Assembly (NCBI RefSeq): GCF_013266755.1
Contig: NZ_JABRWJ010000007.1
Coordinates: forward strand, 434,001-498,000
DNA length: 64,000 nucleotides
Reading direction: 5' to 3'
Source: Pseudaquabacterium terrae
Lineage (GTDB): Bacteria > Pseudomonadota > Gammaproteobacteria > Burkholderiales > Burkholderiaceae_C
Shown here: positions 35,830 through 51,641 of the stretch, in pieces
Numbering within the stretch: position 1 is the first letter of the stretch
How the letters are laid out: every line of letters begins with the position of its first letter
Program-made: the position numbers and the translations under genes
The notes under the pieces: generated by a model
Database searches by the model: none
What the model saw: only the letters and a program-made list of their open reading frames with translations
Told to the model about the DNA's origin: nothing

Positions 35830-35838
35830 ATTGGTATT
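35821..35838 (+). promoter_or_regulatory. Proposed GntR (NagR/NagQ-like) operator at nagK
   Basis: TGGTACTATATTGGTATT: half-site TGGTA repeated 11 bp apart, also readable as an imperfect TAC-N7-GTA inverted repeat. Near-identical 18-bp sites stand before both GntR genes and both downstream TonB receptor genes, and this one overlaps the promoter -10. Confidence 0.6.
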
Positions 35839-35854: not shown

Positions 35855-36754
35855 ATGCGCCTCCAGTCCCTGCCCTCCGCCCAGCCCCGTTTCTTCATCG
35901 GCGTCGATGGCGGCGGCAGCGGCACGCGGGTGCGGCTGGTCGATGACCGCGGCCGCGCGCTCGGCCAGGGTGAAGCCGGTCCGTCCGCGCTCGGCCAGGG
36001 CATCGAGCAGGCCTGGGAGCACGTGCAGCTGGCAATCGAGCGCGCCTTTGCGCAGGCCGGGCTGCCGCTGGCGGCAGCGGCCGACTGCGCGCTCGGTCTC
36101 GGCCTCGCCGGCGCGCACACGCCGGCGCGCTGCGACCGTTTCATGGCCGCCGCGCCGGCCTATGCCCGCGTCGCGCTGGACACCGATGCCGGCACCGCGC
36201 TGCGCGGCGCCCATCGCGGCGCGCCGGGCTCGATCGTCGCCGCCGGCACCGGTAGCGTCGGCGAGGCACTGCGCTGCGATGGCCGGCGCGTGTCGGTCGG
36301 CGGCTGGGGCTTCGGCATCGGTGACGAAGGCTCCGGCGGCTGGCTCGGCCTGGCGTCGGTGCGCATCGCCCAACGCGCGCTCGATGGCCGCGCCAGCGCC
36401 GGCCCGCTGGCGCGCGCGGTGTGGCGGGTGGCCGGCGGCCAGCGCGATGCGTTGCTCGACTGGGCGGCGGTGGCCGGCCAGCATGGTTTTGCCCGGCTCG
36501 CGCCGCTGGTCTTCGACAGCGCCGACGCCGACCCGGCGGCACGCCGATTGCTCGACGAAGCAGCACACGCGCTGGTCGAAATGGCGGCGGCGCTGGACCC
36601 GGCGGCCGAATTGCCGCTGGTACTGATCGGCAGCATCGCAAAGCGGCTCGCGCCGCGGCTGCCGAAGGAATGGCTGGCGCTGGTTGTCGCGCCCCATGGT
36701 GATGCGATCGATGGCGCGCTGTTGCTGGCGCGCGAACCACGGGTTCTCGCCTGA
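35855..36754 (+). CDS. nagK: N-acetylglucosamine kinase, BadF/BadG family
   Basis: A 299-residue ASKHA-fold kinase starting at ATG 35855. The phosphate-1 motif is GVDGGGSGTR (residues 16-25), and the second phosphate loop is IVAAGTGSVGEAL, followed by GGWGFGIGDEGSGGWLG, which is typical of GlcNAc/glucosamine kinases. It converts imported or released GlcNAc to GlcNAc-6-phosphate for NagA. It is the first gene of the operon, and its stop overlaps the nagA start by one base. Confidence 0.85.
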   Translation: MRLQSLPSAQPRFFIGVDGGGSGTRVRLVDDRGRALGQGEAGPSALGQGIEQAWEHVQLAIERAFAQAGLPLAAAADCALGLGLAGAHTPARCDRFMAAAPAYARVALDTDAGTALRGAHRGAPGSIVAAGTGSVGEALRCDGRRVSVGGWGFGIGDEGSGGWLGLASVRIAQRALDGRASAGPLARAVWRVAGGQRDALLDWAAVAGQHGFARLAPLVFDSADADPAARRLLDEAAHALVEMAAALDPAAELPLVLIGSIAKRLAPRLPKEWLALVVAPHGDAIDGALLLAREPRVLA

Positions 36755-37923
36755 TGCTCTCTCCCGCGAACCGGCTCCCCGCCGACGGCCCCGCCGCCCG
36801 GCGACTGGACGGCCACATCCTGACCCCCCGCGGCTTCGTGCGCGGCCACCTGTTGATCGGCGACGACGGCCGCATCGCCACGGTCCACGGCGAGCCGCGC
36901 GACGAATACGCGGTGCGCCACGAAGGCCTGCCGATCCTGCTGCCCGGCTTCATCGACCTGCACGTGCACGGCGGCGGCGGCAGCGACACGATGGAAGGCG
37001 GCGATTCGGTCGAGCGCATTTCCCGCCTGCACGCCACCTACGGCACCACCTCGCTGCTGGCGACGACGATGACCGCGCCGCACGAAGAGCTGGTCAACGC
37101 ACTGTCGGCGATGGGCCGCATCTGCGCCGAGCGCTCCGCCGGCGGCGCGCGTGTGCTCGGCGTGCACCTCGAGGGCCCGTACATCAATGCCGGCAAGCTC
37201 GGTGCACAGCCGGACTTCGTGCGCGCGGTGTCGATCGATGAGTTGCAGGAGCTGCACGCGCTGGCGCCGATCCGGCTGATCACGCTGGCGCCCGAGCTGC
37301 CGCACAACCTCGAGGTGATCGAGCCGCTGGTCGCTGCCGGCTTTCGCGTGCAACTCGGCCACTCGGCCGGCAGCTACGAGGACGGCGTCGCGGCACTGCA
37401 GCGCGGCGCGGGCGGTTTCACGCACCTGTTCAACGCGATGACCGGGCTGCACCACCGCGCGCCCGGCATGGTCGGCGCGGCGCTGGCGCATGCGCGTTAC
37501 GCCGAGATCATCCCTGACCTGCTGCACGTGCACCCGGGCGCGATCCGCGCCGCGCTGCGCGCCATTCCCTGCCTGTACTGCGTCACCGATTCGACCGCCG
37601 CCGCCGGCATGCCCGACGGCGACTACAAGCTCGGCAGCCACACCGTCACCAAATGCCTGGGCGGTGTGCGGCTCGAGGACGGCACGCTCGCCGGCAGCAC
37701 GCTGACCATGGACCAGGCGCTGCGCAACCTCGTCGGCCTGGGCCTGGAATTGGAAGAAGCGGCCCGCCGCACCTCGACCCACGCCGCCGACTACATGGGC
37801 CTGCATGACCGCGGCCGACTCGAACCCGGCGCCTGGGCCGACATCGTCGTGCTCGACCGCACGCTGCAACTGCAACAAGTGATCATCGAAGGAGAAGCGA
37901 TTGAGCTCGCGGACGTCCACTGA
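36754..37923 (+). CDS. nagA: N-acetylglucosamine-6-phosphate deacetylase
   Basis: A 389-residue amidohydrolase that yields glucosamine-6-phosphate and acetate. The metal site is visible: GFIDLHVHGGGG (His 70, His 72), Glu 140 in VHLEGPYIN, the QLGHS and THLFNAM histidines, and the catalytic Asp in YCVTDSTAAAG. The C-terminal GRLEPGAWADIVVLD is also typical. It overlaps nagK by 1 bp and the next gene by 23 bp. Confidence 0.95.
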   Translation: MLSPANRLPADGPAARRLDGHILTPRGFVRGHLLIGDDGRIATVHGEPRDEYAVRHEGLPILLPGFIDLHVHGGGGSDTMEGGDSVERISRLHATYGTTSLLATTMTAPHEELVNALSAMGRICAERSAGGARVLGVHLEGPYINAGKLGAQPDFVRAVSIDELQELHALAPIRLITLAPELPHNLEVIEPLVAAGFRVQLGHSAGSYEDGVAALQRGAGGFTHLFNAMTGLHHRAPGMVGAALAHARYAEIIPDLLHVHPGAIRAALRAIPCLYCVTDSTAAAGMPDGDYKLGSHTVTKCLGGVRLEDGTLAGSTLTMDQALRNLVGLGLELEEAARRTSTHAADYMGLHDRGRLEPGAWADIVVLDRTLQLQQVIIEGEAIELADVH

Positions 37924-38962
37924 CGCGCCCCATGACGTACCGGTTTCGCGCATGCTGAGCGAGGCGCGCGAAGCGCCGGCAGCGATCGCCCGCGCACTGG
38001 CGGCCGACGGGGAGACGCTGGCCGCGCTGGGCCGCGTGCTGCGCGCCGAACCGCCGTCGGCGGTGCTGACGGTCGCCCGCGGCAGCTCCGACCATGCCGC
38101 TCACTTCATGGCCTATCTGGTGATGGCGCGTTTGGGGCGGCTGGTCACATCGCTGCCGATGTCGCTGGTCACGCTGTATTCGTCGCGGCTGCAGTGCGAG
38201 GGCCTGTTGTCGCTGGCCTTCTCGCAATCCGGCCAGAGCCCGGACCTGGTCGCGCCGCAGCGCTTCTTCCGCGCCGGCGGCGCGCGCACGGTGGCCGTCG
38301 TCAACGACCCGGCATCGCCGCTGGCCGAGGCTGCGCAATGGGTGCTGCCGCTGCACGCCGGCGCCGAACGCAGCGTCGCGGCGACCAAGAGCTACATCGC
38401 GCAGCTCGTCGCCGGCGCGCGCTTCGTCGCGCAGTGGCAGGGCGATGCGACCCTGCAGTCGGCACTCGAGGCCCTGCCCGAGGCGCTGGAATCGGCGGCC
38501 TACGCCGACTGGACGCCGCTGGCCGAGACGCTGATCGATGCCGACCGGCTCTTCGTCATCGGCCGCGGCCTGAGCCTGGCGGTGGCGATGGAAGCGGCGC
38601 TGAAATTCAAGGAGGTCTGCGGCATCCAGGCCGAGGCCTTCTCCGGCGCCGAGGTCAAGCACGGCCCGATGGCACTGATCGACGAGGGCTATCCGATGCT
38701 GGTCTTCGCACCGCGTGGCCCGGCGCAGGCCGGCCTGCTGGCGCTGGCCGACGAGATGCGCCAGCGTGGCGCGCGCGTGCTGCTGGCCGCGCCCGCCGGC
38801 ACGCCCGGTGCCGAGCTGCCGCTGATCGCCACCGCCAACGAAGACCTCGATGCGATCAGCGCGATCCAGAGTTTCTATCCCGCCGTGGAAGCGCTGGCGC
38901 GCGCGCGTGGCCTCGACCCGGACGCGCCGCGTCACCTGAGCAAGGTCACGAGAACCCACTGA
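37901..38962 (+). CDS. nagB: SIS-domain glucosamine-6-phosphate deaminase (NagB-II type)
   Basis: A 353-residue protein with two SIS domains: ARGSSDHAAHFMAYL (about 59-73) and VIGRGLSLAVAMEAALKFKEV (about 218-238), followed by AEAFSGAEVKHGPMALI. It resembles the isomerase half of GlmS without the glutaminase; in NAG operons such proteins replace NagB and form fructose-6-phosphate and ammonia. The TTG start at 37901 has GAAGGAG 6 bp upstream inside nagA. An ATG at 37952 (MLSEAREAP) is the alternative start and still leaves both domains whole. Confidence 0.87.
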   Translation: MSSRTSTDAPHDVPVSRMLSEAREAPAAIARALAADGETLAALGRVLRAEPPSAVLTVARGSSDHAAHFMAYLVMARLGRLVTSLPMSLVTLYSSRLQCEGLLSLAFSQSGQSPDLVAPQRFFRAGGARTVAVVNDPASPLAEAAQWVLPLHAGAERSVAATKSYIAQLVAGARFVAQWQGDATLQSALEALPEALESAAYADWTPLAETLIDADRLFVIGRGLSLAVAMEAALKFKEVCGIQAEAFSGAEVKHGPMALIDEGYPMLVFAPRGPAQAGLLALADEMRQRGARVLLAAPAGTPGAELPLIATANEDLDAISAIQSFYPAVEALARARGLDPDAPRHLSKVTRTH

Positions 38963-38967
38963 ATCCG

Positions 38968-40470
38968 ATGAGCCACCCCGATTTCCACCCCGGCCACCTG
39001 GTGATGGTCGACCTGCCGGGCACCTCGCTCGACACCGAGTCCGCCACCTTCCTGCGTCGCCACCACATCCGTGCGATCTGCCTGTTCCGCAAGAACCTCG
39101 GCAGCGAGGACGAGGTGCGGCGCCTGATCACCGAGCTGCGCGAGGTGCTCGGCCCCGAGGCGCTGATCGGCATGGACCAGGAAGGCGGCTCGGTCGTGCG
39201 CGCAACCTTCCTGCCGCAGGCACCGGCTGCGATGGCGCTCGGCGCGGCCGACGACGAAGCGCTGGCCGAAGCCGTCGGCGCGGCGGTGGCGCGCGGCCTG
39301 CGCTCGCTGGGCATCAACTGGAACTTCGCGCCGGTGCTCGATGTCAACAACAACCCGGCGAACCCGGTGATTGCCGAGCGCAGCTTCGGCGCCGACCCGG
39401 AGCGCGTCACGCGGCTGGCCGCGGCGTGGATGCGCGGCTCGCTGCGCGAAGGCGTGGCCTGCTGCGCGAAGCACTTTCCCGGCCACGGCGACACGCATGT
39501 CGATTCGCACCACGCACTGCCGACGGTCGACAAATCGCTCGAAGAGCTCGAGGCGCTGGAGCTGATCCCGTTCCGCGCGCTGGCGCACGGCCCCGATGCG
39601 GCGCCGGCGCTGATGACCGCGCACATCGTCTACCCGCAGATCGACGCGGCCCATCCGGCGACGCTGTCGCGCCCGGTGCTGACCGGCCTGCTGCGCGAAC
39701 GCATCGGCTACGACGGCGTCGTGATCACCGATGCCCTCTTCATGAAGGCCGTGCACGAGCGCTACGGCCATGCCCGTGGCGCCGTGATGGCGCTGCAGGC
39801 CGGCGCCGACATGCCGCTGGCGCAGGGCAGCGTGCAGGAGCAGTCCGACACCGTGCAGGCGATCGAGGAAGCGCTGCGCGAAGGCGAGTTGCTGCCGCAG
39901 CAGGCGCAACGCGCCGCGCAGCGGCTGGCGCGCCTGGCGCAGGCGTATCCGGCCACGCCGCGGGTCTACGACGAGGCGCAGCGCGCCCACGACGACGCGC
40001 TGATGCATCGCGCCTGGGCGCGCGGGCTGACGGCGCTGGGCGGCGCGCTGCCACCGCCGCGCGGCGCGGCGCTGCGCGTGTTGACGCAGGCATCCGTCGC
40101 CAGCGATGGCGTCTCCGAAGCCGGCCTGCCGGCCGCGAAGGTGCGCGAGCTCTTCGCCGGTTTCGACAATGTCGAGTTCATCACGCTGCCGGATCTGCAG
40201 GCGATCAACGCCACGAGCTTGCCGCGCGATGGCCGCGTCAATCTGCTGGTATCGAACCAGCGCACGCGCTACCCCGGCACCGCCGCCGCGGCGCGCCCCG
40301 ACCTGCACCTGGCGCTGTGGAACCCGTTCCAGGTGCTCGACATCGCCGCGCCGGCTCTCGTCAGCTGGGGCTACGCCGACGGCGCGCTCGCGGCTGTGCG
40401 CGCCTGGCTCGAAGGCGCCGCCGATGCGCCCGGCCGTGCGCCGGTGGCGCTGGCGCCGCTGTCCGCCTGA
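38968..40470 (+). CDS. nagZ: GH3 beta-N-acetylhexosaminidase (NagZ-like), cytoplasmic
   Basis: A 500-residue glycoside hydrolase family 3 enzyme without signal peptide. NagZ hallmarks: IGMDQEGGSVVR, the general-acid loop KHFPGHGDTHVDSHHALP (Asp-His pair), and the nucleophile Asp in GVVITDALFMKAV. The last 150 residues form an extra domain absent from the about 340-residue E. coli NagZ. NagZ enzymes remove GlcNAc from anhydromuropeptides or chitobiose in the cytoplasm. It lies 5 bp after the deaminase gene and before an AmpG-like permease, suggesting it cleaves what that permease brings in. Confidence 0.9.
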   Translation: MSHPDFHPGHLVMVDLPGTSLDTESATFLRRHHIRAICLFRKNLGSEDEVRRLITELREVLGPEALIGMDQEGGSVVRATFLPQAPAAMALGAADDEALAEAVGAAVARGLRSLGINWNFAPVLDVNNNPANPVIAERSFGADPERVTRLAAAWMRGSLREGVACCAKHFPGHGDTHVDSHHALPTVDKSLEELEALELIPFRALAHGPDAAPALMTAHIVYPQIDAAHPATLSRPVLTGLLRERIGYDGVVITDALFMKAVHERYGHARGAVMALQAGADMPLAQGSVQEQSDTVQAIEEALREGELLPQQAQRAAQRLARLAQAYPATPRVYDEAQRAHDDALMHRAWARGLTALGGALPPPRGAALRVLTQASVASDGVSEAGLPAAKVRELFAGFDNVEFITLPDLQAINATSLPRDGRVNLLVSNQRTRYPGTAAAARPDLHLALWNPFQVLDIAAPALVSWGYADGALAAVRAWLEGAADAPGRAPVALAPLSA

Positions 40471-40504: not shown

Positions 40505-41890
40505 ATGACACCGTCCACGACCGCTTCAGGCGCGCCGCCGTCCGCCGGCAGCGCACCGGCCCGCTCGCCGATCACCTGGGTGCCGAGCCTGTACTTCGTG
40601 CAGGGCCTGCAGTTCTTCGTCGTCATGCTGATAGCCGGCCTGATGTTCAAGAAGATGGGCGTGCCGAACGACCAGATCGCGCGCTGGACCGGCGTGCTCG
40701 GCCTGGCCTGGGCCTTCAAGCCGCTGTGGAGCCCGTTCCTCGAGATGGCGCGCAGCAAGAAGCTGCTGGTGGTGGTGTTCCAGTTCACCGGCGCGGTCGG
40801 CCTCGCGCTGCTGGCGCTGGCGATCCAACTGCCGATGTTCTTCGCCGCCAGCATCGCGGTACTGTTCCTGCTGGCCTACTCGTCGGCGACGCACGACATC
40901 GCCTGCGACGGCCTGTACATGGCGAGCTTGAGCCCGAAGCAGCAGGCCGCCTACGCCGGCTGGCAGGGCGCGTTCTTCAATGCCTCGAAGTTCCTGACGC
41001 TGGGCGGGCTGCTGGTGCTCGCCGGGCACCTCGAGAAAAGCATCGGCGTGCACCACGCCTGGTCGCTGATCTTCGCCTTCCTGGCGCTGCTGCTGGCCGC
41101 GCTGGCCGCGTACAACGCCTGGGCGCTGCCCGGCGGGACATGGGCCCCCAGGTCTCGGCTGCGCCAAGCCCGCCCCCCGGGGGGGTCGAGCGAAGCGGCA
41201 GAGCCGCATTCGCTCGGCGCCGAAGCCCTGCCCCTAAGCATGGACAGCGTACTGAGCACGCTGCGCGAGGTGCTGAAGGACTTCTTCGCCAAGCCGGGCA
41301 TCGGCATGGCGTTTCTCTTCATCATCCTGTTCCGTCTCGCTGAAGGCCAGGTGCAGACGATCGGCCCGCTCTTCCTGATCGAGCCGCGCGACAAGGGTGG
41401 GCTCGGGCTGACCACGGAACAGGTCGGCGGCATCTACGGCACCGCCGGCACCGCGGCCTTCCTGGTCGGCAGCATCCTCGGCGGCTACTTCACGTCGTGG
41501 CTGGGGCTCAAGCGCGCGATGCCGATCCTGATCCTCGCGATGGCGGTGCCGAACGTCGTCTTCTGGTACCTCAGCCTCACGCTGCCGACCGACCTGATCC
41601 ACACCGGCGTCGCGATCAGCGTCGAGATGGCCGGCTACGGCTTCGGCTTCGTCGGCATGATCCTGTACATCATGCAGGCAGTCGCGCCGGGCAAGTACCA
41701 GACGGCCCACTACGCGCTCGGCACCGGCGTGATGCAGCTGGGGTTCATCCTGTCGAAGACGATCAGCGGCGACATCCAGGTCGCGCTCGGCTACCAGAGC
41801 TTCTTCCTGTGGACCATCGCCTGCGGCGTTCCGGCCTTCCTGCTGCTGTTCTTCGTGCGCATCCCGGCGCCGGAGCGTTCCGACCGATGA
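40505..41890 (+). CDS. AmpG-like MFS permease of the GlcNAc operon, with a repeat-derived loop
   Basis: A 461-residue membrane protein of the AmpG/PAT group: VPSLYFVQGLQFFVVMLIAGLMFKKMGV in helix 1, SSATHDIACDGLYM in helix 4-5, and YGFGFVGMILYIMQAVAPGKYQTAHYALGTGVMQLGF late in the second half. AmpG carries GlcNAc-anhydromuropeptides; relatives in chitin-utilisation loci carry chito-oligosaccharides. Between helices 6 and 7 a hydrophilic segment (about residues 212-246) is encoded by DNA like the intergenic REP repeats. The stop overlaps the GH16 start (ATGA). Confidence 0.82.
   Translation: MTPSTTASGAPPSAGSAPARSPITWVPSLYFVQGLQFFVVMLIAGLMFKKMGVPNDQIARWTGVLGLAWAFKPLWSPFLEMARSKKLLVVVFQFTGAVGLALLALAIQLPMFFAASIAVLFLLAYSSATHDIACDGLYMASLSPKQQAAYAGWQGAFFNASKFLTLGGLLVLAGHLEKSIGVHHAWSLIFAFLALLLAALAAYNAWALPGGTWAPRSRLRQARPPGGSSEAAEPHSLGAEALPLSMDSVLSTLREVLKDFFAKPGIGMAFLFIILFRLAEGQVQTIGPLFLIEPRDKGGLGLTTEQVGGIYGTAGTAAFLVGSILGGYFTSWLGLKRAMPILILAMAVPNVVFWYLSLTLPTDLIHTGVAISVEMAGYGFGFVGMILYIMQAVAPGKYQTAHYALGTGVMQLGFILSKTISGDIQVALGYQSFFLWTIACGVPAFLLLFFVRIPAPERSDR
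41139..41240. repeat. REP-like GC-rich repeat inserted in frame in the AmpG-like permease gene
   Basis: This stretch looks like the intergenic repeats rather than MFS sequence. It has CCCCCCGGGGGGG near 41173-41185, a GGGCCCCCAGGTCTCGGCTG start and a CGAGCGAAGCGGCAGAGCCG dyad. It translates to a low-complexity, Arg/Pro/Ser-rich cytoplasmic loop and keeps the reading frame. The exact borders are approximate. Confidence 0.55.
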
Positions 41891-42792
41891 CTCGCTATCA
41901 CGCATTCGGCGCGGCCCTGCTGCTCGCGCCGACCCTGGCCGTGGCCGCTGCGGCCCCGATCTTCTTCGACGACTTCAGCGATGCCGACACCAGCACGCTG
42001 CCCGCCGCCGGTTGGCAATTGCGCAGCGCCGCCGGCCACCCCGGCGTGCCGGGCGGCCAGTGGCGGCCGGACGCGCTGTCCCTGGTGGACGACCCCGCGC
42101 AGCGCGGCAACCGGCTGCTGCGCCTGAGCGCGCGCACCGATGGCACCGGCGAGGGCACCGTGCAGGCGCAGCTCTGCCACCAGCGCAAGCTGCTGCACGG
42201 CACCTACGCCGCGCGGCTGCGTTTCTCGGACGCGCCGACCGCGGGCATCGACGGCGACCCGGTGATCCAGACCTTCTACGCCGTCGCGCCGCTGAAGCAT
42301 GCCTTCGATCCGCAGTTCAGCGAGGTCGACTGGGAGTACCTGCCCAACGGCGGCTGGGGCAGCGACAAGACGCGGCTCTACGGCATCTCGTGGCAGACGG
42401 TGCAGGTGGAGCCCTGGGAGGCGCACAACAGTGCGCACGAGGAGTTCCGCTCCTTCGACGGCTGGCACGTGCTGCTGATGCAGGTCGAGCCGGCGCAGGT
42501 GCGGCTCTTCGTCGACGGCAAGCAGGTCGCCCGCCACGCGGGCCGCAACGTGCCGGTGGTGCCGATGGCGGTGAGCTTCAACCTGTGGTTCTCGCCCGGC
42601 GGCCTGCTGCCGAAAAGTGCCGAGCCGCGCGCCTACACGCAGGACGTCGACTGGGTCTTCCACGCCGCTGGCCGCACGCTGAGCCCGGCGCAGGTGGCCG
42701 CCGAGGTCCAGCGCCTGCGCCGCAAAGGCACGGCGCGCATCGACACCGTGCCGGCGCCTCAGCCCCCTCTCGAGAGCCGCTGTGATTTTTAG
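41887..42792 (+). CDS. Secreted glycoside hydrolase family 16-like protein
   Basis: A 301-residue protein with a signal peptide ending AVAAAA, followed by FFDDFSDADTSTLPAAGWQ. The GH16 catalytic motif ExDxE is present as EVDWE (Glu 146, Asp 148, Glu 150), and the later strands VRLFVDGKQVARHAG and MAVSFNLWFSPGG fit the jelly-roll fold. GH16 enzymes cut beta-1,3-glucan, mixed-linkage glucan, agar or keratan sulfate; which one is unknown. The start overlaps the permease stop, so it is co-expressed with GlcNAc catabolism. It is the last gene of the operon. Confidence 0.75.
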   Translation: MTRYHAFGAALLLAPTLAVAAAAPIFFDDFSDADTSTLPAAGWQLRSAAGHPGVPGGQWRPDALSLVDDPAQRGNRLLRLSARTDGTGEGTVQAQLCHQRKLLHGTYAARLRFSDAPTAGIDGDPVIQTFYAVAPLKHAFDPQFSEVDWEYLPNGGWGSDKTRLYGISWQTVQVEPWEAHNSAHEEFRSFDGWHVLLMQVEPAQVRLFVDGKQVARHAGRNVPVVPMAVSFNLWFSPGGLLPKSAEPRAYTQDVDWVFHAAGRTLSPAQVAAEVQRLRRKGTARIDTVPAPQPPLESRCDF

Positions 42793-42804
42793 CCGTCAGC
42801 GCCG

Positions 42805-43566
42805 CTAGATCGCATTCAGCTCGGCCACGAAGTCGTAGGTGTCGCCGCGGTAGATCGACTGCGACAGCTCGATCGCCCGCCCGTCGCGCAGATAACCCAG
42901 CCGCTCGACCAGCAGCCCCGCATCGCGCGGCTTGGCCTCCAGCAGCTTGGCCTGCTCGTCGTTGAGCAGCAGCGCGTGCAAGCGCTGCAGCGCCCGCACG
43001 GGCCGATGCCCGGCGCGGTCCAGCGCTTCGTAGAGCGACGTATCGACCGCCTCCAGCGACGGCAGCGCAAACGCCGCGATCGTCGCCGTCTCGATCGACA
43101 TCGGCGCGTCGTCGGCATAGCGCAGCCGGTTGAAGCGGTAGACGGTGGTGCCCGGGCTCATCGCCAGCTTCAGCGCCTCTTCCGGCGTCACCGTGCCCTC
43201 GGCCTTCTTCAGCCAGACGCTGCGCGGATTGCGGCCGCGCGCGCGCATGTCCTCGGAGAACGAGGTCAGCTTCGAGAAGTTCTTGTCGATGCGCGTGCAG
43301 ACGAAGTTGCCGGCGCCCTGGCGGCGCTCGAGCAGGCCTTCGTCGGCCAGGCCATCGATCGCCTTGCGCACGGTGATGCGCGAGACGTTCAGATCGGCGG
43401 CGAGCTGGCGCTCCGACGGCAGCGCGTCATCGGGGCCGAGGATGCGCTTCTCGATCGCCTCGCGCAGCGCCTGCTGCAACTGCAAATACAGCGGCTGGTT
43501 GTTGCTCGGGTCCAGCGTGCGCAGGATCTGCGTCAGCGCCGCCGGATGGTGGGCTTCACTCCTCAT
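42805..43566 (-). CDS. GntR/HutC-family transcriptional regulator, copy 1 (NagR/NagQ-like)
   Basis: A 253-residue regulator. The N-terminal winged helix (about 24-90) reads YLQLQQALREAIEKRILGPDDALPSERQLAADLNVSRITVRKAI, and the UTRA ligand domain fills about 100-245 (GTTVYRFNRLRYADDAPMSIETA). HutC-type regulators next to nag genes usually sense GlcNAc-6-phosphate or glucosamine-6-phosphate. An operator-like 18-mer lies 30 bp upstream of its start, suggesting autoregulation. It is convergent with the GlcNAc operon and divergent from a TonB receptor. The protein is identical to the one at 47361-48122. Confidence 0.9.
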   Translation of the reverse strand: MRSEAHHPAALTQILRTLDPSNNQPLYLQLQQALREAIEKRILGPDDALPSERQLAADLNVSRITVRKAIDGLADEGLLERRQGAGNFVCTRIDKNFSKLTSFSEDMRARGRNPRSVWLKKAEGTVTPEEALKLAMSPGTTVYRFNRLRYADDAPMSIETATIAAFALPSLEAVDTSLYEALDRAGHRPVRALQRLHALLLNDEQAKLLEAKPRDAGLLVERLGYLRDGRAIELSQSIYRGDTYDFVAELNAI

Positions 43567-43595
43567 CGCCGGTCTCTTTGCCTCGCCGTTGCTTA

Positions 43596-43613
43596 AGTAC
43601 CACTATCGTACCA
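43596..43613 (-). promoter_or_regulatory. Proposed GntR operator before regulator copy 1
   Basis: Read on the minus strand: TGGTACGATAGTGGTACT, with TGGTA half-sites 11 bp apart as at nagK. It ends 30 bp upstream of the regulator start and contains a possible -10 (TACGAT), so it fits negative autoregulation. Confidence 0.55.
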
Positions 43614-43746
43614 GAAGCGATTGACGTGGCTCCTCGCGCTTGTACTAGGTGGGTGGTGGCACCGCTGCTGCGCAGCCTGCGCCTCGGTACTGGACTGCAT
43701 TTGTAAGCACCGGATTCGGGTAAACGGCTAGACCGGTCCCACAAAG

Positions 43747-43764
43747 TGGTAGTACATTGGTACG
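43747..43764 (+). promoter_or_regulatory. Proposed GntR operator before TonB receptor 1
   Basis: TGGTAGTACATTGGTACG, with the same 11-bp half-site spacing. It includes a possible -10 (TACATT, 43753-43758) with a poor -35 (TAGACC) 18 bp upstream. It lies 71 bp before the receptor ATG. Confidence 0.55.
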
Positions 43765-43834
43765 CATCCACTTTAGACCAAGCGCCCCGGCGCGCAACCC
43801 CACCTCACCCGCCACCCATCTGTACGAGGAGCAC

Positions 43835-46567
43835 ATGAAGGCAACTTTGACACCCATCGCATCGGCCGTCGCGTTCGCGCTGATCGGCACGGTCGCGCAA
43901 GCGCAGCAGCAGACCCAGCAGGACGACAAGAAGGCGCAGCAGGTGGCTCAGGCGCCGCAGGCTCCCGCAGCACCGGCGGCACCGGTCACTGCGCCGATCC
44001 AGCTGGCGCAGGCGCAGACCGCGGGGCCCCAAGCCGGCACCACGCCGCCGCCGACGGTCATCGAGGTCAAGGGCATCCGCGCCTCGCTTGAATCGGCCGT
44101 GAGCGTCAAGCGCAATGCCACCGCCGTGGTGGACGCCGTTTCCGCCGAAGACGTGGGCAAGCTGCCGGATTCCGACGTCGGCGAAGCCATGGGCCGCATC
44201 CCGGGCGTTTCGGTGGGTCGCGATTTCGGCCAAGGCGCTTCGGTATCCATCCGCGGCACCGACCCGCAGATGACCTACACGACGCTGAATGGTCAAACGG
44301 TGGCCTCCACCGGCTGGTATGACCAGAAGGCGATCGACCGCTCGTTCAACTACTCCCTGCTGCCGCCCGAGCTGATCGGTGGCCTGGAGGTCTACAAGTC
44401 GTCCCAGGCCGACCTGACCGAAGGCGGCATCGGCGGCACCGTGATCGTCAAGACGCGCAAGCCGCTGGATCTGGCTGCCAACACTGCCTTTGCGAGCCTC
44501 AAGTTCGGCAAGGGCAGCATCAGCGATTCGAACCGTGAAGGCTCCGCCCTCTACAGCTTCAGGAACGACAGCAGGACGTTCGGCGTGCTGATCGCCGGCG
44601 CGCTCGAAAAGGGCGACTACATCCGCCGCGGCGTCGAATCCGACATGCGCTGGTCCGGCGACGTGGCCCCGACCTCGTTCGTGCAGGAGCGCGAGCGCAG
44701 GGCCCTGGGCCTGACGCTGCAGGCCCGTCCGGCGCAGGGCGTCGACATCAGCCTGAACTACCTGAAGCTCGAACTGGATGCCAACAACTCCAACAGCAGC
44801 CACTACATCTTCACGGGCAACTCCGGCAACTGCGCGCAGACCAATGCGGCCGGCCTGTGCGTGCTGCACACCCGCGCAGCGGGCAACCCGGCCACGGACA
44901 ACGTGTTCCTGCAGAACTGGGTGCGGTCTTCCTCGATGTCTTCGGACAGCCTGGTGCTGGACGGCTCCTTCAAGACCGACGGCTTCAAGCTGTCGGGCGT
45001 GGTGGGCTCGACCAAGGCCGATGGCGGCACCAACCAGACGGCCAATTTCGCCTATGGTCAATGGGCTCCGTTGACCAGCGCGCCGCAGCTGCCCCTCTGG
45101 ACGGGCACGATCGATGCCACCGGCCACCAGATTTCCGTCAAGCCGTCGTCCAACCAGACCATCGGCGTCGGCAACCTCCCTGCCACCTCGTCGCCCGAAA
45201 CCTGGGCCTCCGGCCGCGGCCCCAACGCGGACAAGGAAAACTTCGTCCAAGCCGACGCGACCATCGATCTGAACTGGGGCGGGTTGACGGCGTTCAAGAC
45301 CGGTGCGCGTGCCTCCGAGCACACGTTCACGCGCACCGGGGCGCGTGGCGTGCATGCCGCGACTGCCGTTCCGGGCGCCACGCCGAGCCTGCACGACGGC
45401 ACCCTGGAGGTTGTGGGCGGCTGGAGCATTCCGCGGCCGAACATCGACGCCATGCTGGCCCTGGCCTCGGCCAACATCACCAACTGGGTTGAAGACCGCT
45501 CGGCATACGGGCAGCTGAAGGAGAAGAACAAGGCCTTGTACGGCATGGTCGAGTTCGAGAAGGACGCGCTGCGCGGCAACGCCGGCCTGCGCTACATCCG
45601 CACCAACGTCTCGGCCACCGGCTACAACTTCGACGGCACCCCGACGACCGATGTGGGCCAGAACAACGGCTGGAGCAAGAGCAAGGTCACGCGGCAGACG
45701 AGCTACGACGATGTCCTGCCGAGCATGAACCTCGTCTACTCGCTGAACCAGAACATGATGCTGCGCGTGGCCGCTGCCAAGGCGATCACCCGCCCGAACT
45801 TCGACAACATGTTCCTCACGACGGTGGTCGGTTTCGACGACACCAACGCGCAGAACGACGCGTTCACCTACGGCACGCCGGACCTGAAGCCGCAGAAGTC
45901 CACGCAGTTCGACCTCAGCTTCGAGTACTACTACGGGCGTGGTCGCGGCAACCTGTTGTCGGCTGCGATCTTCCACAAGAAGATCGACAACTTCGTCACC
46001 ACGCAGACCCAGCTGAACCAGCGCGTCGGCACGGTGAGCCCGGACACCGGCCTGGACAACTGGACGATCAACCGCTACGTCAACGCCGGCGGCGGCAGGA
46101 TCAACGGGGTGGAAGTGCAGGCCAACCATGCCTTCGGCAACGGCTTCGGCATGACAGGCAACTACACGTACGCCGATGCCAAGGCACCCGCCACCAGCTA
46201 CCTCGACGAGCTCAACCTCTTCACGCTGTCTTCGCGCCACACCGCCAACCTGGTCGGCTACTTCGAGACCGACGTGTACTCGGCCCGTCTGGCCTACAGC
46301 TGGCGCTCCAAGTACATGGTTCGCGAGAACGGCTGGTACGGCAATCGATTTCACGACGCCATCGGCAGCCTGGACCTGAGCCTGGGCTGGAACATCACCA
46401 AGAACCTGCGGCTGACGTTCGAAGCGCTCAACCTGACGAAGGAAGACGACGTGCAGTACGGCGCAGGCAACGCCGCCAAGCAGCGCGCCTCGCTGCAAAA
46501 TGGCTTCCCGACGTGGTCGTTCAAGGGTGAAACGACTTACCAGGTCGGCCTGAGCGCAAAATTCTGA
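43835..46567 (+). CDS. TonB-dependent receptor 1 of the GlcNAc locus (Xanthomonas/Caulobacter type)
   Basis: A 910-residue outer-membrane receptor from ATG 43835 with GAGGAG just upstream. A signal peptide ending AQAQ is followed by a Gln/Ala/Pro-rich periplasmic linker to about residue 70, then the TonB box TVIEVKGIRAS. The plug contains DVGKLPDSDVGEAMGRIPGV and SIRGTDPQMTYTTLNG, and the barrel ends ETTYQVGLSAKF with a terminal Phe as required for insertion. The DDVLPSMNLVYSLNQNMMLR stretch marks the carbohydrate-type subfamily. With the nag operon next door, uptake of GlcNAc-containing oligosaccharides is likely. A good terminator follows. Confidence 0.9.
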   Translation: MKATLTPIASAVAFALIGTVAQAQQQTQQDDKKAQQVAQAPQAPAAPAAPVTAPIQLAQAQTAGPQAGTTPPPTVIEVKGIRASLESAVSVKRNATAVVDAVSAEDVGKLPDSDVGEAMGRIPGVSVGRDFGQGASVSIRGTDPQMTYTTLNGQTVASTGWYDQKAIDRSFNYSLLPPELIGGLEVYKSSQADLTEGGIGGTVIVKTRKPLDLAANTAFASLKFGKGSISDSNREGSALYSFRNDSRTFGVLIAGALEKGDYIRRGVESDMRWSGDVAPTSFVQERERRALGLTLQARPAQGVDISLNYLKLELDANNSNSSHYIFTGNSGNCAQTNAAGLCVLHTRAAGNPATDNVFLQNWVRSSSMSSDSLVLDGSFKTDGFKLSGVVGSTKADGGTNQTANFAYGQWAPLTSAPQLPLWTGTIDATGHQISVKPSSNQTIGVGNLPATSSPETWASGRGPNADKENFVQADATIDLNWGGLTAFKTGARASEHTFTRTGARGVHAATAVPGATPSLHDGTLEVVGGWSIPRPNIDAMLALASANITNWVEDRSAYGQLKEKNKALYGMVEFEKDALRGNAGLRYIRTNVSATGYNFDGTPTTDVGQNNGWSKSKVTRQTSYDDVLPSMNLVYSLNQNMMLRVAAAKAITRPNFDNMFLTTVVGFDDTNAQNDAFTYGTPDLKPQKSTQFDLSFEYYYGRGRGNLLSAAIFHKKIDNFVTTQTQLNQRVGTVSPDTGLDNWTINRYVNAGGGRINGVEVQANHAFGNGFGMTGNYTYADAKAPATSYLDELNLFTLSSRHTANLVGYFETDVYSARLAYSWRSKYMVRENGWYGNRFHDAIGSLDLSLGWNITKNLRLTFEALNLTKEDDVQYGAGNAAKQRASLQNGFPTWSFKGETTYQVGLSAKF

Positions 46568-46596
46568 GGGCCCGAAGGCTACGGCCCGTCTCCCGC

Positions 46597-46624
46597 AAAG
46601 CCCGGCTCAGGCCGGGCTTTTTTA
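46597..46624 (+). terminator. Rho-independent terminator after TonB receptor 1
   Basis: Perfect 10-bp stem AAAGCCCGGC / GCCGGGCTTT with TCAG loop, followed by TTTA to make a six-T run. It ends 11 bp before the next gene, so that gene needs read-through or its own promoter. Confidence 0.85.
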
Positions 46625-46634
46625 TCCTTGCGCC

Positions 46635-47342
46635 ATGAGTCCACCCGTCACGATACGCATGCCACCCGACATCCAAAGCGTGGACATCGGCGGGCACAGC
46701 ATCGTCTTCATCGACAACTTTTTGCAGGACCCGCAGGCCTTGGTGGAGGCAGCCGCCCAAAGCCCCTTCGAGCGGCCAGCGACGCTGGACGAACTCAAGG
46801 GCTACCCGGGCCTGCGCGCGCCCGCGCCGGCGGCCTACACGCAAACGCTCACGGAGTTGCTGGACCCGCTCATCAAGGTCAATTTCCAGGTACCCGAACA
46901 CCTGGGCGTCAAAGTGGGACTGAGCGCGTTCTCCCTCACCACCGTTCAGCCTGAACAACTGGGGCCCCTGCAGCGCACACCCCACTTCGACGCCAGCACG
47001 CCGTACTACATGGCCGCCTTGCTCTGGCTGTGCGACGAGAGCCATGGCGGCACCGGCTTCTACCGGCACAACGCCACGGGCTGCCAGCGCATCACTGCCG
47101 GGAACCGCGAGCGCTACCTCGACGTTTACAACGAGGAAGTCAATCGCCGCCGCCCGCCGCCGCGCTACTTCGACCGTTCAGACGAACAGTTCACCTTCCT
47201 GGGCATGATGCCCGCCCGCTTCAACCGCCTGGTGGTATATCCCGGCAGCTTGTTGCACAGCGCGTGCATCAACCCCGCCCGCAGCTTGAACAGCGACCCG
47301 CGCAAGGGCCGCCTGACGGTCAACACTTTCTACGATTTCTGA
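46635..47342 (+). CDS. DUF6445-like putative 2-oxoglutarate/Fe(II) oxygenase-fold protein
   Basis: A 235-residue protein without signal peptide. A jelly-roll iron site can be proposed: His 117 and Asp 119 in RTPHFDAS, His 208 in PGSLLHSAC and Arg 226 in GRLTVNTF. This is the H-x-D...H...R pattern of 2OG oxygenases. The overall pattern (FIDNFLQDPQALVEAA, GGTGFYRHNATG, RLVVYPGSLLHSA) fits the DUF6445 family often found next to TonB receptors in Xanthomonas and Caulobacter relatives. Its role is unproven. It is sandwiched between receptor 1 and repeat copy 2. Confidence 0.7.
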   Translation: MSPPVTIRMPPDIQSVDIGGHSIVFIDNFLQDPQALVEAAAQSPFERPATLDELKGYPGLRAPAPAAYTQTLTELLDPLIKVNFQVPEHLGVKVGLSAFSLTTVQPEQLGPLQRTPHFDASTPYYMAALLWLCDESHGGTGFYRHNATGCQRITAGNRERYLDVYNEEVNRRRPPPRYFDRSDEQFTFLGMMPARFNRLVVYPGSLLHSACINPARSLNSDPRKGRLTVNTFYDF

Positions 47343-47360
47343 AAATCCCGGCATGTGCCG

Positions 47361-48122
47361 CTAGATCGCATTCAGCTCGGCCACGAAGTCGTAGGTGTCG
47401 CCGCGGTAGATCGACTGCGACAGCTCGATCGCCCGCCCGTCGCGCAGATAGCCCAGCCGTTCGACCAGCAGCCCCGCATCGCGCGGCTTGGCCTCCAGCA
47501 GCTTGGCCTGCTCGTCGTTCAGCAGCAGCGCGTGCAACCGCTGCAGCGCCCGCACGGGACGATGGCCCGCGCGGTCCAGCGCTTCGTAGAGCGACGTATC
47601 GACCGCCTCCAGCGACGGCAGCGCAAACGCCGCGATCGTCGCCGTCTCGATCGACATCGGCGCGTCATCCGCATACCGCAGCCGGTTGAAGCGGTAGACG
47701 GTGGTGCCGGGGCTCATCGCCAGCTTCAGCGCCTCTTCCGGCGTCACCGTGCCCTCGGCCTTCTTCAGCCAGACGCTGCGCGGATTGCGGCCGCGCGCGC
47801 GCATGTCCTCGGAGAACGAGGTCAGCTTCGAGAAGTTCTTGTCGATGCGCGTGCAGACGAAGTTGCCGGCGCCCTGGCGGCGCTCGAGCAGGCCTTCGTC
47901 GGCCAGGCCATCGATCGCCTTGCGCACGGTGATGCGCGAGACGTTCAAGTCGGCGGCGAGCTGGCGCTCCGACGGCAGCGCGTCGTCGGGGCCGAGGATG
48001 CGCTTCTCGATCGCCTCGCGCAGCGCCTGCTGCAACTGCAAATACAGCGGCTGGTTGTTGCTCGGGTCCAGCGTGCGCAGGATCTGCGTCAGCGCCGCCG
48101 GATGGTGGGCTTCACTCCTCAT
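47361..48122 (-). CDS. GntR/HutC-family transcriptional regulator, copy 2
   Basis: A 253-residue protein identical, residue for residue, to the regulator at 42805-43566, with the same winged-helix and UTRA domains. About a dozen base differences between the genes are all silent (for example in the codons near 47451-47455, 47668-47676 and 47947). It is divergent from TonB receptor 2 and convergent with the oxygenase-like gene. Since both proteins must bind the same operators, the second copy may alter dosage rather than specificity. Confidence 0.9.
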   Translation of the reverse strand: MRSEAHHPAALTQILRTLDPSNNQPLYLQLQQALREAIEKRILGPDDALPSERQLAADLNVSRITVRKAIDGLADEGLLERRQGAGNFVCTRIDKNFSKLTSFSEDMRARGRNPRSVWLKKAEGTVTPEEALKLAMSPGTTVYRFNRLRYADDAPMSIETATIAAFALPSLEAVDTSLYEALDRAGHRPVRALQRLHALLLNDEQAKLLEAKPRDAGLLVERLGYLRDGRAIELSQSIYRGDTYDFVAELNAI

Positions 48123-48151
48123 CGCCGGTCTCTTTGCCTCGCCGTTGCTTA

Positions 48152-48169
48152 AGTACCACTATCGTACCA
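48152..48169 (-). promoter_or_regulatory. Proposed GntR operator before regulator copy 2
   Basis: Minus-strand TGGTACGATAGTGGTACT, identical to the site at 43596-43613 and again 30 bp from the regulator start. Confidence 0.55.
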
Positions 48170-48293
48170 GAAGCGATTGACGTGGCTCCTCGCGCTTGTA
48201 CTAGGTGGATGGTGGCACCGCTCCTGCGCCCCGGTACTGGACTGCATTTGTAAGCACCGGATTCGGGTAAACGGCTAGACCGAGCCCCTAAAG

Positions 48294-48311
48294 TGGTAGT
48301 ACATTGGTACG
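48294..48311 (+). promoter_or_regulatory. Proposed GntR operator before TonB receptor 2
   Basis: TGGTAGTACATTGGTACG, identical to 43747-43764 and 71 bp before the receptor start, so the two receptors should respond together. Confidence 0.55.
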
Positions 48312-48381
48312 CATCCACTTTAGGCTAAGCGCCCCGGCGCGCAACCCCACCTCACCCGCCACCCATCTGTACGAGGAGCAC

Positions 48382-51252
48382 ATGAAGGCAACTTTGACAC
48401 CCATCGCATCGGCCGTCGCGTTCGCGCTGATCGGCACGGTCGCGCACGCGCAGCAGCAGACCCAGCAGGACGACAAGAAGCCGCAGGCGCAACAGGTGGC
48501 TCAGGCGCCGCAGGCTCCGGCAGCGCCGGCGGCGGCGGCCTCCGCCCCGCAGGCACAACAGGTCGCGCAAGCCCCGGCCCAGCCGCAGGCGCCCCGCGCC
48601 GGCACGCCGGCGCCCGAGACCATCGTCATCACCGGCATCCGCGGCTCGCTGCAGCAATCGCTGAACCAGAAGCGCGCCGCCGACAGCCACACCGAGGTCA
48701 TCACCGCCGAGGACATCGGCAAGATGCCTGACAAGAACGTCGCCGACTCGCTGCAGCGCGTGCCCGGCGTGACGATCAGCTCGGCGGGCGCCACCGAAGG
48801 CGGCTTCGACGAGAACGACCGCGTCTCGATGCGCGGCACCAACCCCAGCCTGACGCAGACGCTGATCAACGGCCACCCGGTCTCGTCCGGCGACTGGTTC
48901 GTGCTGAACCAGAGCGACAACGCCGGCCGCAGCGTCAGCTACACGCTGCTGCCGTCGGAACTGGTCAGCCGCGTCGTCGTGCACAAGAGCTCGGAGGCCA
49001 GCCTGATCGAAGGCGGCGTCGCCGGCTCGGTGAACATCATCACCCGCAAGCCGCTCGAGTTCCGCCAGCAGCTGACGCTCGAAGCCGCGCTCGGCGCCGT
49101 GCACGCCACGCTGCCGAAGAAGACCGACCCGCAGTTCAATGCGCTGGTCAACTTCAAGAACGATTCCAGCACCGCCGGCGTGATGCTGCAGGTCTTCTCC
49201 GAGAAGCGGCATCTGCGCCGCGACGGCGTCGAGATCCTCGGCTACAACCAGATCTCCCCGACCAGCGATGTCGTACTCGGCAATGCCACCAAGGGCATTG
49301 CACCTCACCCGGACCTCGCCAACGTCTACTACCCGCGCTCGACCGGTGCGGCGTTGTTCGAGCAGGTGCGCAAGCGCGAAGGCGGGTTGCTCGAGGTGCA
49401 GGTTAAGCCGATGGCCAACCTGACCCTCGACGCCTCGGCCTTCGCGTCGAAGATGGACGCGTCGAACTACAACCGCAACTACCTCGTGCACGCGCCGTTC
49501 TTCTTGAACGAAGGCCGCGGGCAGGCGCCCGATCCGGGCTATGTCGTGCGCAACCAGACGCTGGTGAAGGCGAAGTTCAGCCCGATTCCGAATGCCGATG
49601 GGTCGCCCTCGACACAGGCTTATGGCGTCTACGACCAGATCGCGCGCCCCGACGAATCGGCCGAGACGACGTTCTTCAACTTCGATGCCAACTGGCGTGC
49701 CAGCGATGCGTTGACGCTGAACTTCAAGGCCGGCACGTCGACCGGCAAGGGCAAGACGCCAACGCAGAACGTCGCCGAATGGGACGTAGGCAAAGGCACC
49801 GGAGCGTCGTGGAATCTCAATGGCGTCGACAGCGCTCCCGACTTTTCGCTGCACACGCCCGCCAACGTACCCGGAGGCGATGCCACGCGCTCGCTCGACT
49901 GGATCTTCGGCTACCAGAACGTCAACATCAAGGACAAGGACGACTGGGCGCAGATCGACGGCGAGTTCGCACTCGACGCCGGCATGTTGTCGACGCTGAA
50001 GTTCGGGGTCCGCGCAGCCAAGCACACGCGTGACTCGCTGGGCGTCATCGCGCAGGGCCCTGGCCCAGGCGCTTTCGACCTGACCAAGTGGCCGAGCACC
50101 TTCGCCAACTATCCCGGCAACTTCGGCTCGGGGCTGGGTGGCACGTTCGCCCGCGACATCTGGTACTACACGTACGAGCAGATGAACGCGGTGGCCCCGG
50201 GCTTGTCGAACCGCGACCCGAAGATCCGCGCCTATCCGCTGGCCGATTTCGAGCTCGAGGAGAAGGCCAACGCCGGCTACGTGCAGGCCAACCTCGAGGG
50301 CAAGGGCTGGCGCGGCAATGTCGGCGTGCGCTTCGTGCAGACCAAGGAGCACGTGATCAAGTTCATCAACGTGCCCGAGACGGCGCCCGGGGCCATCATC
50401 GGATCGGCCTTCGGCGCTTTCCTGCCGGTGGTGACCGACCACAGCTACAACGACGTGCTGCCGAGCCTGAACCTGCGCGTCGACGTCGCCAAGGACATGG
50501 TGGCGCGCTTCGCGGTGTCGAAGACCATGACCCGGCCCGACTATTCGGCACTGGCGGGCGCGTTGAACCTGGCGCCGCCGGCCAACCAGGGTGACATCGG
50601 TCGCGGTAACGGCTCGAACCCCGACCTGAAGCCGGTGCGTTCGACCAACGTCGACGCCGCGCTCGAGTGGTACTACGCGCCGCGCGCGCTGGTCTCGGCC
50701 GGTGCCTTCTACATGGACCTGCGCAGCTACGTCGGCCTCGGCAAGGTGCGCCGCCAGTACATCACCTTCGATCAGGCGCACCCGAACGGCTACATGGCCG
50801 ACTACGACCTCGACGTGCCGATCAACAGCAGCGGCAAGATCAAGGGCCTGGAGCTGGCGATCGAGCAGCCGTTCGGCAACTTCGGCATTTCGGCCAACTA
50901 CACCTACACCGATGCGAAGGAAAAGGGCGGCGGCCCGATCGTCGGCGCCTCGCGCAACATCTACAACCTGGTCGGCTACTACGAGGACGACCGCTTCAAT
51001 GCGCGCGTCGCCTACAACTTCCGCTCGCACTTCTACAGCGGCCTGGATCGTTCGACAGCGTTCAGCCAGGACGACACCGCGTCGCTGGCCGCATCGCTGG
51101 GCGTGAAGATCAGCGACAAGCTGAGCGTCTCGCTCGACGGCATGAACCTGAACAACCCGAAGCTGAAGTACTACGCGCTGAACGGCGATCAGCCGCGATC
51201 GATCTACCAGAACGGCCGGCAGTTCTACCTGACGCTGCGCGCCAAGCTCTGA
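48382..51252 (+). CDS. TonB-dependent receptor 2 of the GlcNAc locus
   Basis: A 956-residue outer-membrane receptor from ATG 48382. The signal peptide and start of the linker match receptor 1 almost exactly. The linker is longer, with repeated AQQVAQAP units, and leads to the TonB box ETIVITGIRGS. Plug and barrel then differ strongly from receptor 1: DIGKMPDKNVADSLQRVPGV, SMRGTNPSLTQTLINGHPV, NDVLPSLNLRVDVAKDMVAR. The C-terminus is YLTLRAKL, ending in Leu rather than the classical Phe. It belongs to the same carbohydrate-type subfamily and probably takes a related but different oligosaccharide. A terminator follows at 51292. Confidence 0.9.
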   Translation: MKATLTPIASAVAFALIGTVAHAQQQTQQDDKKPQAQQVAQAPQAPAAPAAAASAPQAQQVAQAPAQPQAPRAGTPAPETIVITGIRGSLQQSLNQKRAADSHTEVITAEDIGKMPDKNVADSLQRVPGVTISSAGATEGGFDENDRVSMRGTNPSLTQTLINGHPVSSGDWFVLNQSDNAGRSVSYTLLPSELVSRVVVHKSSEASLIEGGVAGSVNIITRKPLEFRQQLTLEAALGAVHATLPKKTDPQFNALVNFKNDSSTAGVMLQVFSEKRHLRRDGVEILGYNQISPTSDVVLGNATKGIAPHPDLANVYYPRSTGAALFEQVRKREGGLLEVQVKPMANLTLDASAFASKMDASNYNRNYLVHAPFFLNEGRGQAPDPGYVVRNQTLVKAKFSPIPNADGSPSTQAYGVYDQIARPDESAETTFFNFDANWRASDALTLNFKAGTSTGKGKTPTQNVAEWDVGKGTGASWNLNGVDSAPDFSLHTPANVPGGDATRSLDWIFGYQNVNIKDKDDWAQIDGEFALDAGMLSTLKFGVRAAKHTRDSLGVIAQGPGPGAFDLTKWPSTFANYPGNFGSGLGGTFARDIWYYTYEQMNAVAPGLSNRDPKIRAYPLADFELEEKANAGYVQANLEGKGWRGNVGVRFVQTKEHVIKFINVPETAPGAIIGSAFGAFLPVVTDHSYNDVLPSLNLRVDVAKDMVARFAVSKTMTRPDYSALAGALNLAPPANQGDIGRGNGSNPDLKPVRSTNVDAALEWYYAPRALVSAGAFYMDLRSYVGLGKVRRQYITFDQAHPNGYMADYDLDVPINSSGKIKGLELAIEQPFGNFGISANYTYTDAKEKGGGPIVGASRNIYNLVGYYEDDRFNARVAYNFRSHFYSGLDRSTAFSQDDTASLAASLGVKISDKLSVSLDGMNLNNPKLKYYALNGDQPRSIYQNGRQFYLTLRAKL

Positions 51253-51356: not shown

Positions 51357-51641
51357 ATGGAGTATCAGATGCACGTGCTGCCCGCTGACCAGCGCATGGC
51401 GGTCAGCGCCGATCAAACCCTGCTGCAGGCGGCACTGCACGCCGGCCTGCGCCTGCCCCACTCCTGCCGCAACGGCACCTGCCGCAGCTGCATGTGCCGG
51501 CTCATCGACGGCCGCATCGGCTACCGCATCGCCTGGCCCGGACTGCTGGCCGAAGAGAAGGTCGAAGGCTGGATCCTTCCCTGCGTCGCCTACCCCGAGA
51601 CCGATGTGGTCATCGACGCGCCCGCGGCCTCGGCGGCCTGA
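51357..51641 (+). CDS. Small 2Fe-2S plant-type ferredoxin
   Basis: A 94-residue ferredoxin. Four cysteines follow the plant-type order C-x4-C-x2-C...C: SCRNGTCRSCMC near residues 36-45 and LPCVAYP near 75. The preceding TLLQAALHAGLRLPHS is the usual lead into the cluster loop. It lacks a reductase domain, so it is a free electron carrier for an unknown partner. It stands alone between receptor 2 and a DUF3016 gene. Confidence 0.88.
   Translation: MEYQMHVLPADQRMAVSADQTLLQAALHAGLRLPHSCRNGTCRSCMCRLIDGRIGYRIAWPGLLAEEKVEGWILPCVAYPETDVVIDAPAASAA

Follow-up and report, generated by a model that had tools for sequence, protein, structure and literature searches.

Outer-membrane importers are feeding organs and at the same time entry points for phages and bacteriocins, so that bacteria can gain by changing their receptors. 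In Xanthomonas and Caulobacter, carbohydrate utilisation loci bring together a TonB-dependent transporter, a regulator and catabolic genes. N-acetylglucosamine (GlcNAc) genes are reported to be controlled by NagQ, a regulator of the GntR/HutC type (PMC4494728, PMC5343134), whose operator is described as tandem TGGTATT direct repeats (PMC4494728). For two Xanthomonas species, the published account names nagA, nagB and nagP as targets of NagQ and TonB receptors as targets of a second regulator, NagR (PMC5343134); DasR is likewise reported to regulate amino-sugar use (PMC4494728). Here, we analyzed a window of 64,000 nucleotides (nt) from the 8.04-Mb genome of Pseudaquabacterium terrae (contig NZ_JABRWJ010000007.1, positions 434,001 to 498,000), in which a NagQ-like gene, its divergent promoter and the leader of the adjacent TonB-dependent receptor are present twice, each time in front of a different receptor.

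We consider it about 75 % probable that this regulator-promoter-leader unit, in the following called the socket, is a fixed element behind which mature receptor bodies are exchanged, and that the window carries two such bodies, T1 together with a DUF6445 gene and T2, on two sockets.

Two sockets and two receptor bodies

The amino-sugar (nag) genes occupy 35.8-42.8 kb, 5' of both socket copies. Next come GntR copy 1, on the minus strand, with receptor T1 and DUF6445, then GntR copy 2, also on the minus strand, with receptor T2, and finally a ferredoxin gene. The features of the duplicated region are:

42801..43982, no strand: cassette copy A (GntR gene, promoter, signal peptide, first part of the linker)
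42805..43566, minus strand: GntR/UTRA regulator copy 1, NagQ-like
43598..43613, minus strand: operator 1A
43747..43762, plus strand: operator 2A
43835..46567, plus strand: TonB-dependent receptor T1 (TonB-Xanth-Caul), whose signal peptide and linker start are part of the cassette
44054..47343, plus strand: putatively transplanted block of T1 mature receptor and DUF6445, 84 % nt identity to loci L207 and L039, ending with the DUF6445 stop codon
46635..47342, plus strand: DUF6445 protein
47357..48535, no strand: cassette copy B
47361..48122, minus strand: GntR/UTRA regulator copy 2, protein identical to copy 1
48154..48169, minus strand: operator 1B
48294..48309, plus strand: operator 2B
48382..51252, plus strand: TonB-dependent receptor T2 (TonB-Xanth-Caul)

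Over 1188 aligned columns, the direct repeats 42801-43982 and 47357-48535 differ by 28 substitutions and 15 gap columns, which confirms an initial annotation that had called them nearly identical and equally oriented. Each copy contains the GntR gene and the divergent promoter and reaches about 49 codons into the receptor gene (about 45 in that annotation), covering signal peptide and linker and counted from the likely start codons ATG 43835 and ATG 48382. Both start codons follow a GAGGAG, as does the receptor start at the same place in the sister species Aquabacterium humicola. A search of the whole genome with the cassette gave 15 matches, of which only these two sites are full length and the other 13 are pieces of 26-129 nt. 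On the left, the match starts 4 nt past the GntR stop codon; on the right, it fades in the P/A/Q-rich linker after the signal peptide, with identities from the ATG of 99 % (nt 0-75), 93 % (75-150), 65 % (150-225) and 56 % (225-300).

The two GntR genes encode identical proteins of 253 amino acids. They differ in 14 codons, all synonymously (probability of no amino-acid change about 9e-9 if changes fell on all sites alike), so both copies are either held by selection or were made alike by conversion. The synonymous distance (dS) of GntR is 0.073 between the copies and 0.23 between window and A. humicola, with flanking genes at 0.37-0.44. Judged by these distances, the second socket appears to have been made or last homogenised after the window species and A. 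humicola parted.

Behind the leader, the receptors are distant homologues with barrels only 31 % identical, which does not fit a plain tandem duplication and agrees with the strong divergence first noted. High similarity stops in the linker instead of running along the whole receptors. Both proteins are TonB-Xanth-Caul receptors (TIGR01782, cut-off 310; T1 565.3 bits, T2 583.9 bits) with Plug and barrel domains (Pfam). T1 is chimaeric: within its first 60 residues, 54/60 aligned positions match T2 and only 20/39 match the T1 receptor of Rivibacter, and its body is 78 % identical to the Rivibacter receptor and 31 % to T2. With solved structures, T1 and T2 align only in their N-terminal plug part (E-value up to 1e-5), and these matches thus do not tell the substrate.

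The proposal of two operator-like sites per cassette also proved real. The exact motif TGGTA-N6-TGGTA, which covers only the TGGTA part of the published repeat, has five sites in the genome, and all of them are confined to this locus: one before nagK and two, on opposite strands, in each cassette. The reversed control pattern matched once in the genome, and the five exact matches in the window compare with 0.15 expected with up to one mismatch. Among 50 divergent intergenic regions of regulator loci (two regions longer than 700 nt left out, both window copies counted), 35 contain the exact motif.

The regulator combines a GntR domain (70.1 bits) with a UTRA domain (124.7 bits; Pfam). In NCBIfam, it matched 24 models, none at cut-off and none named NagQ, which bears on naming only. 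Its nearest solved structures are DasR and YvoA, which we take to be a regulator of amino-sugar use, and the homology to DasR and to YvoA/NagR makes a phosphorylated amino sugar the probable effector. A predicted operator directly precedes the nagK-nagA-nagB-II genes. Since these genes and a NagZ-like glycoside hydrolase family 3 (GH3) gene adjoin behind the same operator, the sugar is very probably GlcNAc or its oligomers, and it would switch on both receptors. By gene content and operators, we assign the region as a NagQ-type GlcNAc/chitin-sugar locus.

Different histories of sockets and receptors

A. humicola (RJY3; L009), a member of the same genus, has a syntenic locus with flanks 80-88 % identical in nt, a GntR protein with 99 % and a signal peptide with 92 % identity. 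Its receptor belongs to a third type, T3, which is 43 % identical to T2 in the barrel. Copy A follows A. humicola through GntR (88-100 % per 75-nt bin), promoter (73-89 %) and signal peptide (92 %) and then drops to 49-72 %. The profile against the T1 holders L207 (genome G407) and L039 (Rivibacter) is the opposite: GntR DNA is 77-79 % identical, promoter and signal peptide gave no BLAST match (a forced alignment gives 41-72 % per bin from the promoter to the linker), and identity reaches 73-93 % from nt 225 after the ATG. The T1 and DUF6445 block then runs uninterrupted for about 3.3 kb, from the linker to the DUF6445 stop (44061-47343, 83.7 % to L207; 44054-47342, 83.9 % to L039). These opposite profiles place the T1 junction at about 43983-44053. 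Behind the T2 leader, similarity to A. humicola extends somewhat further (88 % at nt 225-300) until the T2 holder G215 is the better match, which puts this junction roughly at 48540-48680.

Quick trees were used for all phylogenies and approximately unbiased (AU) tests, and support is given as Shimodaira-Hasegawa-like approximate likelihood ratio (SH-aLRT). The comparison of receptor and regulator phylogeny revealed incongruent histories. In the GntR tree and, separately, in that of nagB-II and GH3, the window groups with A. humicola (SH-aLRT 93-94 and 99), whereas in the tree of receptor bodies T1 groups with L207, L039 and L031 (100) and T2 with L208 (88). The AU test rejected T2 with the A. 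humicola receptor (p 7e-6) as well as the window GntR with those of the T1 holders (p 1e-107).

Altogether, three receptor types lie opposite this GntR. T1 is found in the window, Rivibacter L039, L031 and G407 (L207), T2 in the window, G215, G013, Ideonella L016 and others, and T3 in A. humicola L009, G012, G007, G010, G085 and G115. In the window, T1 comes joined to a DUF6445 gene, a term for which the open literature searched gave no match. T1-type receptors occur in 32 of 399 family genomes (E-value up to 1e-200), the latter being a sample of a larger group. DUF6445 lies within the 1.5-kb flanks in 22 of the 30 T1 loci fetched, the window's included, and among the 21 genomes of the genus it is present in the window genome only (E-value up to 1e-20).

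The combination of one regulator with different receptors recurs in three groups besides the window and A. humicola. In genus g96 (G407, G215, G115), GntR is 95 % identical and the signal peptides 76-84 %, yet the barrels (29-41 %) are of types T1, T2 and T3; the AU test rejected the three receptors together (p 2e-41). In genus g139, the loci L018/L020 and L019/L213 share 98-99 % in GntR and 79-96 % in the signal peptide but only 41-43 % in the barrels, which are 76-78 % identical within each same-type pair; in the three of four between-type pairs profiled at the DNA level, the last 150 nt before the start are 96-99 % identical. The third group consists of L012 (T3) and G013 (T2), which are sisters in the regulator and operon trees (100 and 99).

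L018 additionally carries a second, T1-type receptor with DUF6445 downstream (15780-18540, with GntR set to the minus strand). Its leader matches that of the neighbouring receptor over about 230 nt (184 bits); no operator was found within 900 nt upstream and no second GntR at the locus. This arrangement points to a separate event in which a T1 body was joined to a leader of the same locus.

The receptor survey used 66 of 91 regulator loci (L064-L088 left out); 3 had no start codon and 11 no divergent receptor, and L214 and L217 were excluded because they repeat L019 and L020. For pairwise comparison, 27 receptors were chosen as betaproteobacterial or near, of which the incomplete L216 fell out, leaving 26 receptors and 325 pairs. 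A signal-peptide comparison of 15 pairs, hand-picked from the 325 and not independent, gave a Mann-Whitney p of 0.0017.

The two-copy state itself is rare. The regulator was detected in 19 of the 399 family genomes (E-value up to 1e-80), twice only in the window genome, and 8 of 92 fetched loci have a second GntR-type match, all of them diverged (45-57 % within the pair). Two NagQ-like GntR genes with 79 % identity lie about 15-16 kb apart on a contig of a Rhizomicrobium metagenome-assembled genome (JANWJQ010000046.1; L055 and L058), possibly an older double-socket case. The initial annotation had proposed one control-and-export module on two receptor bodies and had suggested looking for further copies of it in related genomes. 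Sequence, relatives and trees support the proposal, and modules with other receptors do exist in relatives, but with a single regulator copy per genome. Its idea of new importers being added under an existing switch stands as far as the joining of module and receptor is concerned; with two regulator copies in 1 of 399 genomes and single copies in the relatives, it is the exchange of bodies that recurs, and doubling of the whole cassette is rare.

Weighing of the explanations

In the exchange reading, the conserved socket consists of the regulator gene, the divergent promoter with its two operators, and the signal peptide and linker of the receptor, and recombination exchanges the mature receptor, with junctions within the linker or shortly behind it. 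In the window lineage, a resident T3, as in A. humicola, would have been replaced by T2, and the second socket copy would have arrived with T1-DUF6445. T1 and T2 would be exported via the same signal and induced together once GntR binds its effector, and one receptor could be lost again if the direct repeats cross over. The two-socket genome may then be an intermediate of receptor exchange that direct-repeat recombination can resolve. We offer only tentatively, and at less than even odds, a general route by which a new body enters on a second socket, both receptors coexist, and a direct-repeat crossover deletes one of them; g96, g139, L012/G013 and the single-copy locus of A. humicola would be finished exchanges, and the NagQ loci of Burkholderiales receptor-exchange sites.

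Several observations weigh against the exchange of bodies behind a fixed socket. NagQ adjoins T1 in only 3 of the 30 T1 loci (window, G407, Rivibacter), and these three T1 receptors are also the most alike, which fits the transfer of a whole GntR-T1-DUF6445 unit as well. In three of six comparisons (window-L207, window-L039, L207-L039), the T1 block has a lower dS than the three tested genes of the flanks; in the three with L031 it is not clearly lower, so a recent transfer is only partly supported. The differences between the two GntR copies are somewhat uneven (longest identical run, p 0.049; halves, p 0.057), and gene conversion may therefore have contributed. G013, of the same genus, has the T2 type, and T2 may thus be older in the genus than assumed. 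Across the 325 pairs, the signal peptide follows the regulator only modestly (rho 0.38, compared with 0.21 for the barrel), and in 5 of 23 loci (L018, L019, L211, L213, L216) a second receptor of these types lies near the socket. A search of 72,556 plasmid records for a carrier of T1 found none and gave only 2 matches, each with about 30 % identity.

For this genome, the strongest competing explanation is conversion: a whole GntR-T1-DUF6445 unit would have been inserted beside GntR-T2, and its regulator, promoter and leader would then have been overwritten by the resident copy. Such a unit does exist in the same locus in Rivibacter (L039), L031 and G407 (L207). Further points in favour are the close T1 relatives next to NagQ, the uneven differences, and a GntR dS three times smaller between the copies than towards A. 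humicola. Conversion must, however, have covered the whole regulator, promoter and leader and halted a few nt from the regulator stop and in the linker. Moreover, in g96, g139 and A. humicola, too, different bodies lie behind one socket, yet no second near-identical copy was found there as a conversion source, so a double state would have to have been lost each time. We regard this course as improbable; in effect, it also passes through two sockets.

Somewhat less probable again is differential loss, in which an ancestor had several receptors behind homogenised sockets or leaders, and the relatives kept one each and the window two. The 5 of 23 loci with a further receptor close to the socket would fit, as would the T1 and DUF6445 of L018 behind a neighbour-like leader and the two 79 % identical GntR copies on one Rhizomicrobium contig. 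On the other hand, the regulator is single-copy in 18 of the 19 family genomes having it, leader homogenisation would be needed repeatedly and in every genus, and the window genome has no close T3 relative at an E-value up to 1e-100 (best matches 46 % and 39 %; pseudogene remnants not searched).

Plain tandem duplication of one GntR-receptor unit, with fast receptor divergence beside a constrained regulator part, would suit two tandem TonB-Xanth-Caul receptors and purely synonymous GntR changes, but is rejected by the receptor relatives, the trees and the similarity ending in the linker: receptors of other genera reach 83 % identity with T1 and 67 % with T2, which at a GntR dS of 0.073 dates the T1-T2 split long before the copying of the socket, and DUF6445 accompanies T1 types elsewhere and was found in 1 of 21 genomes of the genus.

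The locus and its relation to known systems

The genes flanking the duplicated region are:

35821..35836, plus strand: NagQ-type operator TGGTA-N6-TGGTA, 18 nt upstream of the nagK ATG
35855..36754, plus strand: nagK-like N-acetylglucosamine kinase, BadF/BadG ATPase family (NF046058, 170.4 bits, under the cut-off of 370)
36754..37923, plus strand: nagA, N-acetylglucosamine-6-phosphate deacetylase (TIGR00221, 266.7 bits, cut-off 225.65)
37901..38962, plus strand: nagB-II-like SIS-domain deaminase (NF046059, 273 bits, under the cut-off of 430)
38968..40470, plus strand: GH3 beta-N-acetylhexosaminidase, NagZ-like (NF003740, 220.1 bits, cut-off 207)
40568..41890, plus strand: AmpG-like major facilitator superfamily transporter (model score under cut-off; start not fixed)
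41890..42792, plus strand: glycoside hydrolase family 16 (GH16)-like protein (weak Pfam match, 20 bits against a gathering score of 22)
51357..51641, plus strand: 2Fe-2S ferredoxin, downstream flank common to A. humicola

The GH16-like gene is kept next to the nag genes in many relatives and perhaps encodes its own kind of amino-sugar enzyme. L031, L039, L207, L208, L209, L210 and L215 possess a further GntR-type gene upstream of nagB-II, at the far end of the nag genes, whose identity with the NagQ-like regulator is 44-46 %. Among L155-L180, T1-type loci without NagQ often have DUF6445 convergent with the receptor, and beside NagQ it lies downstream on the same strand. G115 (L211 and contig C21) has four T3/T2-like receptors at an E-value up to 1e-100, two of them adjoining GntR. 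No integration-site tRNA was found within the window, and a composition scan in 1-kb windows over 40-53 kb revealed no sharp island edge (GC content 62.6-71.7 %).

The wider finding suggested by these comparisons is that receptor bodies are exchanged at the NagQ-type loci of these Burkholderiales, with the window genome in the two-receptor state. The locus illustrates how a receptor may be changed or added with induction and export kept intact. It provides a natural series, one kind of socket with three receptor types, in which one can test whether the choice of receptor at a sugar locus evolves apart from regulation and whether direct-repeat sockets speed up exchange.

Like the carbohydrate utilisation loci of Xanthomonas and Caulobacter, the locus unites a TonB receptor, a regulator and catabolic genes; to our knowledge, the description of those loci does not include receptor bodies that change behind a fixed leader. 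For sugar receptors, we found no paper on receptor exchange behind a fixed socket in the open literature, searched by titles and abstract beginnings, with most subscription papers outside.

The SusC/SusD shufflons reported for Bacteroides resemble the locus in placing different outer-membrane receptors behind one control element (PMC12548429, PMC11868660). As described there, they switch reversibly by DNA inversion within one genome, whereas the P. terrae copies are direct repeats and the exchange is between species. A shufflon was rejected for the locus: among repeats of at least 20 nt in 42700-48700, only direct ones connect the copies, the sole inverted pair being a palindrome inside GntR copy 1. 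A Pfam scan of the 17 proteins of 32.8-56.5 kb detected no recombinase. With the NagQ regulon, the locus shares a GntR and UTRA regulator beside nagK-nagA-nagB-II and an operator of tandem TGGTA direct repeats. It differs in that the NagQ-like gene itself lies opposite a TonB receptor, and in that regulator, promoter and leader are doubled with two receptors.

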